From NCBI RefSeq assembly GCF_033096445.1, contig NZ_AP028155.1, positions 1,679,880 to 1,743,879 of the forward strand: a stretch of 64,000 bases of DNA, read 5' to 3'. Below, piece by piece: positions 54,409 to 56,913 of this stretch; the stretch's first letter is position 1, and each line of letters begins with the position of its first letter. Source of the stretch: Butyricimonas faecihominis. GTDB lineage: Bacteria; Bacteroidota; Bacteroidia; Bacteroidales; Marinifilaceae. The position numbers were made by a program, and so were the translations under genes. The notes beneath the pieces are model-generated. The model was not told the origin of the DNA. It searched no databases and worked only from the letters and a program-made list of their open reading frames with translations.

Positions 54409-56913
54409 TTATGAACCCATTAATGTGTTAAACTCTTTTTCGGTCAAAATAGTTACATTTAACTTCTGTGCTTTTTGCAATTTACTCCCGGCATTCTCTC
54501 CCGCCAAAAGATAAGTCGTCTTGTTAGATACTGAATCACTGACTTTTCCCCCGGCTTTCAGGATAATTACCTTGAAATGCTCTCTTGGCAGCGAAAGAGT
54601 TCCCGTGATCACGAAGGTTGTTCCGGCCAACTGATCGGATTCACCCTCTTCTTCCTGTATTGTCCCGCTAATACCATATTGCAAAAAGCGTTCCATCATC
54701 TCCCGGTTCTCCGCCTTTTCGAAATAACGGATCACGCTACCGGCCATCTGATCCCCGATATCCTCGACCTCCGTCAACTGTTCAAACGTCGCGTCCATCA
54801 ACTTCCGGATGTCCTTAAAATGACGGGCCAGATTCCTCGATGCCGTCTCCCCGATATAGCGAATCCCCAGAGCATTAATGAATTCCGGCAAATTCCGTTG
54901 TTTCGATTTCTCTATTCCGGCAATAAGATTATCCACCGATTTTTCTTGTAAACGATACACGCTCAACGTGTTCATTTTCCGGATAAACTTTTCTTTTCCC
55001 TGTAAAAAACGATATACACGCTCGGCATTCTCACGTGACATTTCGTCAGTCTCCGCGATCTCATCCAGTGTTGCCGTGTAAAGACGATAAATATAATCGA
55101 ACTTAACAGACAGTAATTCAGCCTTATGGAAATCAATTTCGGGTATATCCAAGGCGTAAATCACCGCATCCAACGGCAGCATATCCACCTCTCCGGCCTG
55201 CCTCAAACGCTCCAACGGCTCATTGAACGGCATCCGAAAATACTCCAGCATTTTATTGATATTCTTCTCCCGATCACCGGGGAATTGTAGATTCCCGACA
55301 GCCATCAACTCCTCTTTCGAGGCCCCGACCAATTTCGTCAGACTACCGAAATGTTCTGCCAAAACATCCGCGTTTTTGGCAGATATATTCTTCATCCCGA
55401 TCTCGAAAGCATAAATCACTTTTCCCAACGGAATACTGGTCATCACGTAACTCTCCGGGTAAAGAATCTTTTCCAACCCGATCAACTCCTCCCGACGGGA
55501 CGGCAGAGTATAAATATCTGCGACATCCCGAATAAACCCTTTTGTCAGCAATAAATCAATGGTCTCACCCCCCATTCCCTCTATATCCATCGCCTTCCGG
55601 CTCACGAAATGTTCCAGTTTCCCGGCAATCTGCGGGGGACAATGATCCTCGTTCGGGCAATAATGATTTGCCTCCCCTTCATTACGAATCAACGGGGTAC
55701 CACATTCCGGACAATGCGTGATAAACTCGATTACCGGGGCATCAGCCACTCTCTTTTCCACGTCCACCCCCACGATCTTCGGGATAATCTCTCCCCCTTT
55801 CTCCACGTACACCATATCGTGCAGGTGCAAATCCAACTCCCGAATAATATCTTCATTATGCAGTGAGGCCCGTTTCACGGTAGTCCCCGCGATATGAACG
55901 GGTTCCAAGTTAGCCACCGGGGTAATCGAACCGGTACGTCCCACTTGGTAATCCACGCTAAGCAATCGGGTCTCCACCCGCTCCGCCTTGAACTTATAGG
56001 CCACGGCCCAACGAGGCGATTTCGCCGTGTACCCCAGCTGCAACTGCTGCTTGATACTATTCACCTTGATCACGATCCCGTCAATAGGCACCGGAAGATT
56101 CTTCCGTTCCACATCCCATTTGTGAATAAAATCAAGAATCTCGTCTATATTGTGACATAACCCGATATACGGGGGAACATTAAAACCCCATTCCCTCGCT
56201 TTCATCAAATTCCCGTAATGTGTCGGGGTCAACGTGATTTCTCCCGGCACGTAATATAAATAACAATCCAACTGCCGCTTGGCAACAATGGAAGAATTCT
56301 GCAACTTCAACGTACCTGCTGCCGCATTCCGCGGGTTGGCAAATAAAGCCTCTCCCGCCTCCAGCCGTTCCTCGTTCAATCGATTAAACACGGCAAAAGG
56401 CATCAGAATTTCCCCCCGAATCTCGAATTCCGCGGGATAATCCTCCCCCTGCATATGCAATGGAACCGTTCGAATAGTCCGAACATTAGTTGTCACGTCA
56501 TCCCCCTTCACGCCATCACCCCTCGTCACCGCCACCTGCAAATTCCCATCTTCATAGCGCAGGCTGATAGAAGTCCCGTCATACTTTAACTCGCAGACAT
56601 ACTCCACGTCATCTCCCCCGATACCTTTTCGCACCCGCTCATCAAAATCCCGGATCTCCTGCTCGCTATACGTGTTCGCCAATGACATCATGCCATATTT
56701 ATGCGCCACCTGCACAAACTCATTCGTCGTGTCGTTCCCCACCCGCTGCGTCGGTGAATTCGGATCAAACATTTCCGGATGCTCTGCCTCCAACCGTTCC
56801 AGCTCATGCATTAACTCGTCAAACTTCTGATCGGTAATCACCGGCTCATTCTTCACATAGTACAGGTAGTTGTAATGCTCCAACAACTTTCTCAACTCAA
56901 CAATTCTATCCAT
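54409..56913 (-). CDS. ligA: NAD+-dependent DNA ligase LigA with extra HhH repeats
   Basis: 834 aa, about 160 residues longer than usual LigA (about 670). It joins nicked DNA in replication and repair. Order: Ia and adenylation domain with Lys110 in the KYDG motif (the AMP-lysine), OB domain, Cys4 zinc finger at about 405-430 ('CPECGTPL', 'CPNEDHCPP'), helix-hairpin-helix region, and C-terminal BRCT domain at about 760-834. The extra sequence lies between about residues 472 and 655. It holds two degenerate copies of the helix-hairpin-helix block starting near 494 ([13 protein letters not shown]) and 579 ([13 protein letters not shown]), before the normal one near 675 ([14 protein letters not shown]). 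A TATCTTTG -7 element and a 17-bp hairpin lie in its upstream gap. Confidence 0.93.

Follow-up and report, generated by a model that had tools for sequence, protein, structure and literature searches.

The NAD+-dependent DNA ligase (LigA) encoded in the window, the 64,000-nucleotide stretch of Butyricimonas faecihominis DNA analyzed here, carries an insert of about 172 residues inside the hairpin of helix-hairpin-helix (HhH) motif 2, comprising two tandem (HhH)2 domains, or four extra HhH motifs. LigA is essential in bacteria, is a subject of drug-target work and is usually viewed as having a fixed architecture of about 670 residues. The form found here is a real, well-defined variant of that enzyme; it is neither a decaying gene nor a new system. 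Its extra motifs lie within a hairpin that is reported to be essential for DNA binding in E. coli. The features of the gene are listed in the table.

Features of ligA and of its insert, with positions in the window
Feature	Position	Strand	Evidence
ligA, NAD+-dependent DNA ligase, 834 aa	54409..56913	(-)	ORF and translation, Pfam, NCBIfam, sole LigA match in genome
Lys110 codon (KYDG), expected adenylated lysine	56584..56586	(-)	Invariant in 52 aligned LigAs
C4 zinc finger, Cys401 to Cys425	55639..55713	(-)	Pfam DNA_ligase_ZBD 400-426; cysteines invariant
First helix of HhH motif 2, residues 464-477	55483..55524	(-)	Model
Strand at insert base, residues 481-484	55462..55473	(-)	Model
Extra segment relative to E. 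coli LigA, residues 483-654	54952..55467	(-)	Alignment to 2owo, spacer lengths
Unit A, pseudo-(HhH)2 domain, residues 494-578	55180..55434	(-)	Pfam, shuffles, models, profile comparison
Unit B, pseudo-(HhH)2 domain, residues 579-650	54964..55179	(-)	Pfam, shuffles, models, profile comparison
Strand at insert base, residues 651-654	54952..54963	(-)	Model
Second helix of HhH motif 2, residues 657-670	54904..54945	(-)	Model
Canonical HhH motifs 3-4, residues 675-747	54673..54891	(-)	Pfam HHH_2 678-739, model
BRCT domain, residues 759-829	54427..54639	(-)	Pfam BRCT

The reading frame translates to a protein of the length and with the extra blocks that were originally predicted, and the remainder of the enzyme proved to be as intact as had been claimed, the catalytic lysine and zinc finger included. 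LigA passed both NCBIfam equivalog cut-offs (PRK07956, 837.7 against 369 bits; TIGR00575, 795.7 against 444.45 bits), and Pfam placed its domains in the expected order of Ia, NTase, OB, C4 zinc finger, HhH and BRCT. Lys110, the expected adenylated lysine of the LigA family, was unchanged across a 52-row LigA alignment, as were Cys401, Cys404, Cys419 and Cys425. LigA is predicted to seal nicks with NAD+. The single-contig genome (4,851,806 bases) contained one LigA match and no match to the ATP-dependent ligase domain PF01068, for which the same search was positive in 6 of 14 control genomes; this rules out another ligase as a stand-in for LigA. Published lengths of LigA already span 656-837 residues (PMC8123306).

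The site of the insert was located by alignment to E. coli LigA (2owo). The alignment breaks off at query residue 482 (chain residue 487) and picks up at query residue 652 (chain residue 485), so that the extra segment falls between the equivalents of Arg487 and Met488-Gly489, within the HhH2 hairpin. The two helices of HhH2 flank it, one on each side, as judged from the alignment, spacer lengths and the model. From the two strand assignments in the model, the short strands at the base probably pair with one another. Arg487 and Gly489 of the E. coli hairpin are reported to be essential for DNA binding. The Gly489 position is Gln656 in the window LigA; among 48 LigAs with a 5-residue hairpin it is Gly in 25 and Ala in 18, and a glycine there is therefore not fixed in the sampled Bacteroidota. 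The original prediction had described two extra, degenerate HhH repeats in a tandem array beside the normal block. Its block starts (494, 579 and 675) and spacings (85 and 96) were exact, and the repeats are homologous and degenerate as stated, but each corresponds to a full tandem (HhH)2 domain and the pair sits within the HhH2 hairpin instead of beside the normal block.

Alignment of the three blocks, performed by Smith-Waterman against 2000 shuffles, gave matches above chance in every pairing. The first extra block matched the canonical HhH3-4 block with z = 8.5 (1 of 2000 shuffles equal or higher), the second with z = 5.9 (0 of 2000), and the two extra blocks matched each other with z = 7.8 (0 of 2000). 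Pfam HHH_2 had three matching stretches in LigA. Searched alone, the segment named in the original prediction reached 52.4 bits over two stretches (cut-off 27) and matched the NCBIfam LigA profile at positions 501-573 (E 7.3e-10). When each unit was scored separately in a genome scan with the 27-bit HHH_2 cut-off, unit B lay above it (31.0) and unit A below it (24.1, E 1.8e-4). Profile-profile comparison (hhalign) with HhH3-4 of insert-free LigAs gave 99.2 for unit A and 99.0 for unit B, and 97.6 for one unit against the other. Chance similarity is ruled out by the shuffles together with the Pfam, NCBIfam and hhalign profiles, and at the sequence level these comparisons establish that units A and B are homologous to LigA's own HhH3-4. 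An origin from HhH1-2 was unsupported: the shuffle test gave z of only 1.0 and -0.3, and hhalign gave 8.5 (unit A) and 86.6 (unit B), as compared to 99 for HhH3-4. The canonical HhH3-4 itself scored 66.3 against HhH1-2; this value and the 86.6 of unit B indicate that a faint general HhH kinship is also present.

Structure prediction agreed with these relationships. An AlphaFold model of the full LigA, based on 52 aligned LigAs (pLDDT 87.8, pTM 0.54), displayed the same six-helix order in all three blocks, units A, B and canonical. Since fold searches with the full model were dominated by the catalytic domain, the insert was also folded and searched alone; with 26 sequences it reached pLDDT 88.8 and pTM 0.83, and the helix order was repeated. 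In Foldseek, the top rows for the isolated insert were mostly LigA, followed by DisA, XPF/ERCC1, UvrC, Hef and some other helical proteins, with weak E-values (best 4.4e-3, none at or below 0.001). VIA-align compared the insert with a DisA chain (Z 8.3, rmsd 7.0 over 119) and with 2owo (Z 7.8, rmsd 10.3 over 131); a Z of about 8 is middling for this tool and can reflect a common arrangement. Single units superposed on HhH domains (7y0d, 4yxm, 3c1y and 1x2i) at 1.4-2.5 Å over 57-65 residues (Z 6.9-7.7), and the high rmsd when both are superposed together is consistent with a changed arrangement of the pair. The (HhH)2 fold of each unit is predicted from sequence and models together. The modeled fold is not an unrelated one, in line with the original suggestion that the extra copies had kept their shape. 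No insert-bearing ligase was evident in the Foldseek and VIA-align lists of solved structures, which is not proof of absence.

The hairpins of the extra units differ from the canonical ones in their glycines. In E. coli LigA the hairpin glycine Gly521 is reported to be essential for DNA binding. The equivalent residue in unit A (511) is Ser in the window and Gly in none of 26 homologues; in unit B (594) it is Asp, with Gly in 3 of 26. The Gly553-equivalent of unit B (626) is Ser in the window, with Gly in 4 of 26; the count leaves aside unit A's second hairpin, which falls in an indel region. Residues 511, 594 and 626 thus lack the second glycine of the canonical GhG. At the canonical HhH3-4 hairpin positions, 688 and 720, Gly is present in 34 of 34 and 33 of 34 inserted LigAs, respectively. 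Because the Gly521-equivalent is missing in both units, canonical minor-groove binding by them is unlikely. The first place of each unit B hairpin, one turn earlier, often keeps its glycine among the homologues (592 in 21 of 26, 624 in 17 of 26; Glu at both in the window), and unit B may have some hairpin character. The original claim that the GxG-type hairpins were lost is borne out for the Gly521-equivalent; the neighboring glycine of unit B, absent from the window LigA, is often retained in homologues, which speaks against a simple total loss. Net charge (insert -6, canonical HhH3-4 -3) did not discriminate; over 33 inserted LigAs, with one (L089) left out, the insert averaged -4.4 and ranged from -11 to 3.

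Selection on the insert was assessed from the 10 pairs among five ligases of the genus. Ka/Ks was 0.045-0.122 for the insert, 0.028-0.041 for residues 1-428 and 0-0.064 for HhH3-4, single values being rough because Ks exceeded 1 in several pairs. Three wider pairs (L001, L006 and L007), in which Ks was undefined in several regions, were left out. The insert was less constrained than residues 1-428 and HhH3-4 in 10 of 10 pairs. By this measure the insert is under purifying selection, and decay, which the original prediction had also judged not to be the case, is ruled out by Ka/Ks values in this range. Inner residues such as Asn648 and Leu650 are conserved across the insert alignment.

In the samples searched, the insert is concentrated around Butyricimonas and Odoribacter and is rare outside them. 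It was present in all six sampled genomes of the genus, three of which (G002, G004 and G005) have a ligase C-terminus in common with named Butyricimonas records. An insert-profile search of the family matched 24 of 56 genomes, 23 of them over 177-178 positions and one (G020) cut; some members of the family have a LigA without the insert. Among 393 genomes of the order there were at least 13 bearers, the window's included. Eleven matches spanned 177-178 of the 178 positions; in G176 and G209, also among the bearers, the insert was confirmed by reading the gene; and nearly all others among the matches listed were partial and lay in frames of normal LigA length. In all, the search of other Bacteroidota LigAs placed homologous inserts at this hairpin in eight family-level groups of the order, counting that of the window. 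When 395 genomes of the phylum were searched, the only full-length insert-profile match was that of the window.

Ligase length was surveyed independently of the insert profile. Frames of at least 800 residues with a long spacer were found in 4 genomes of the order (138 matched of 139 searched, not selected for the insert) and in 3 of the class (138 of 139), two of which were G401 and G436. Six further long frames from these surveys were without the insert, one of them with a longer hairpin; fragmentary ligases were outside this judgement. Five genomes with frames of 820-845 residues (G401, G436, G519, G596 and G543) have spacers of 147-156 residues at the HhH2 site, possible relatives of the insert. 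The spacers of group f128 (L130-L133) and of L134 are 147-156 residues long and at the same site, with hhalign probabilities of 8.9 and 41.0; these LigAs are counted in the size tallies and among the 34 inserted LigAs, and are not in the 26-row insert alignment. G153 has an 18-residue HhH2 hairpin.

Several other features were observed in the ligases of these relatives. Two LigA-like frames were present in each of two genomes, G153 (C34, C58) and G799 (C73, C116), representing a second copy or a mixed assembly. In the case of G001, of the same genus (L014, L109, L174; C1:5032633-5035133), ligA is broken into two frames close to where the HhH region begins, through either an assembly error or a real frameshift. 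G766 (L142, L089) has a LigA of 984-986 residues with the HhH2 insert and, in the HhH4 region, another long insertion. A separate 204-residue frame with 34% identity to the C-terminal BRCT region of LigA was found in G001 (C1:2603165-2603494) and G027 (C1:670393-670722), and its sequence suggests a small BRCT-bearing protein in these relatives.

Spacer lengths at HhH2 were compared across 102 LigAs, a set of distinct sequences of at least 600 residues drawn from these searches and not a random sample. The spacer was 5 residues in 48, 13-19 in 18, 40-48 in 2 and 147-182 in 34. Loops of 16-19 residues occurred in 17 of the 102 (L043, L045-L048, L050, L052, L077, L096, L098, L099, L101, L103, L107, L108, L135 and L136) and a 13-residue loop in L017, indicating that HhH2 hairpin length is variable in several lineages. 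The short loops of L020 and L021, as candidate remnants of a deleted insert, were also compared with its ends: in 3 of 8 comparisons the number of equal or higher scores among 1000 shuffles was below 50 (48, 45 and 29), in the other 5 it was 65 to 248, and the alignments did not fit cleanly to both insert ends.

The tandem duplication originally proposed, taken as a recent event in this gene, did not hold up. Inserts of other genera share 20-68% identity with that of the window, and alignment scores among unit A, unit B and the canonical block are comparable (55, 64 and 53), which together rule out a recent duplication. The sequence comparisons and models instead identify units A and B as old duplicates of LigA's own HhH3-4. 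On a quick tree of the ligase without the insert, insert presence required 11 changes, 9 of them forced by starred branches. Grouping the bearers of clear homology and four insert-lacking family members as one clade was rejected (AU p 0.006), in a test that used a thinned 54 of the 102 LigAs and a clade chosen after viewing the first tree. L018 and L019, which are without the insert, were nested among Odoribacter bearers; this suggests loss of the insert in some close relatives whose LigA otherwise looks normal, the direction being read from the nesting. Over 26 rows, insert and body distances correlated with r 0.80, a value that owes its height to close relatives; across ten deep lineages they did not (r 0.12, Mantel p = 0.32), long branches weakening the test, and in the insert tree two long branches meet. 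The low value among deep lineages may reflect transfer of the insert from one lineage to another or strongly unequal rates. Genomes without the insert were smaller (5 against 18 genomes, Mann-Whitney p 0.0009), in a comparison of related genomes that left out six less complete or cut bearers (G816-G819, G828 and G020) and further insert-lacking family members of 3.5-6.7 Mb, and in which two of the five insert-lacking genomes were only 81-83% complete. Smaller genome size as a correlate of insert absence was set aside for these sample gaps, incompleteness and kinship.

We tentatively interpret the insert as an outward-facing accessory scaffold for partner docking or clamp bracing, a reading that falls somewhat short of an even chance. 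Two pseudo-(HhH)2 domains, raised on two short strands in the HhH2 hairpin and each keeping its helical scaffold, would project outward from the ligase clamp. There the module would dock a partner protein or brace the clamp beside the nick, tuning where and how firmly LigA sits and remaining outside the sealing chemistry. Partner docking is favored as the first choice, and a clamp lengthened by non-canonical DNA contacts as the second. The homology of the units, the confident insert model, the missing Gly521-equivalent and the low Ka/Ks are in agreement with this interpretation. In E. coli LigA the surroundings of R487 are reported to be exposed on the outside (PMC8123306), and (HhH)2 domains can act as protein interfaces, as reported for FANCM-FAAP24 (PMC3905867). 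Binding of LigA to the replication clamp is reported for E. coli and H. pylori, though not for M. tuberculosis (PMC4976356); neither precedent shows how this module acts. With a full-model pTM of only 0.54 for the enzyme alone, the outward direction of the module and its position on the clamp are putative. Because the insert-lacking L018 and L019 lie within the bearers' part of the tree, ligation itself does not depend on the insert. Against the scaffold interpretation are the often-kept glycines of unit B and a net charge that does not discriminate; the faster change of the insert relative to residues 1-428 and HhH3-4 also fits a loosely constrained ornament.

It is rather unlikely that the module acts as a longer clamp, lying along the duplex beyond the canonical footprint of about 19 bp (PMC5052709) and raising affinity or processivity through side-chain DNA contacts. 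HhH2 is reported to be a DNA-binding motif in E. coli LigA (PMC8123306), the insert begins there, and unit B often retains one hairpin glycine; however, the Gly521-equivalent is missing in both units and the net charge of the insert is negative, both in the window and on average over the inserted LigAs. It is likewise doubtful that the insert is a tolerated ornament left by an old duplication in a permissive loop, without function of its own and occasionally dropped, its folded form being retained since misfolding would harm an essential enzyme. The patchy presence of the insert, its apparent loss in close relatives, its higher rate of change compared with the remainder of LigA and, in 20 of 102 LigAs, the loops of 13-48 residues at this site would all be expected of an ornament, whereas Ka/Ks values far under 1, presence throughout the sampled genus and widely around Odoribacter and Butyricimonas, and the conserved Asn648 and Leu650 would not. 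An unrelated inserted domain or intein-like element that is merely HhH-like is extremely improbable, despite the weak Foldseek E-values and a VIA-align Z of about 8, in view of the Pfam HHH_2, NCBIfam LigA and hhalign matches and the helix order in the models; no intein or HINT family was among the Pfam matches of LigA up to E = 1.

A bolder form of the docking interpretation, improbable on present evidence, is a lineage-hopping pseudo-HhH docking platform, passed among Bacteroidota LigAs separately from the ligase body and dropped time and again. The hint comes from the low correlation among deep lineages and from rejection of the bearers' ligase bodies as a clade. If true, an exchanged module would adapt LigA to a replication or repair partner specific to the lineage. 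Related ligases with the module (for example Odoribacter laneus, L009/L160) and without it (L018/L019) provide natural pairs for testing its role and for following the gain and loss of domains within an essential enzyme.

No published description of the insert was recognized in a search that covered part of the literature. The module can be compared with several known systems. The window LigA resembles E. coli LigA (2owo) in domain order, catalytic lysine and zinc finger, and its model matches that structure with Z 35.4 over 521 residues (rmsd 5.9), but its HhH2 hairpin is longer by about 172 residues and has Gln656 where the E. coli enzyme has Gly489. Units A and B are related to the canonical HhH3-4 (Pfam HHH_2) and have the same predicted helix order; they differ in their altered hairpin glycines and in being placed inside another HhH motif. 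The (HhH)2 domains of XPF/ERCC1, FANCM-FAAP24, UvrC, Hef and DisA share the predicted fold (1x2i, rmsd 2.4 over 65, Z 6.9), although they belong to other proteins, some as reported dimer interfaces (PMC3905867). Other Bacteroidota LigAs with HhH2 loops of 13-19 or 40-48 residues have extra residues, possibly akin to the module, at the same hairpin but no inserted domain.
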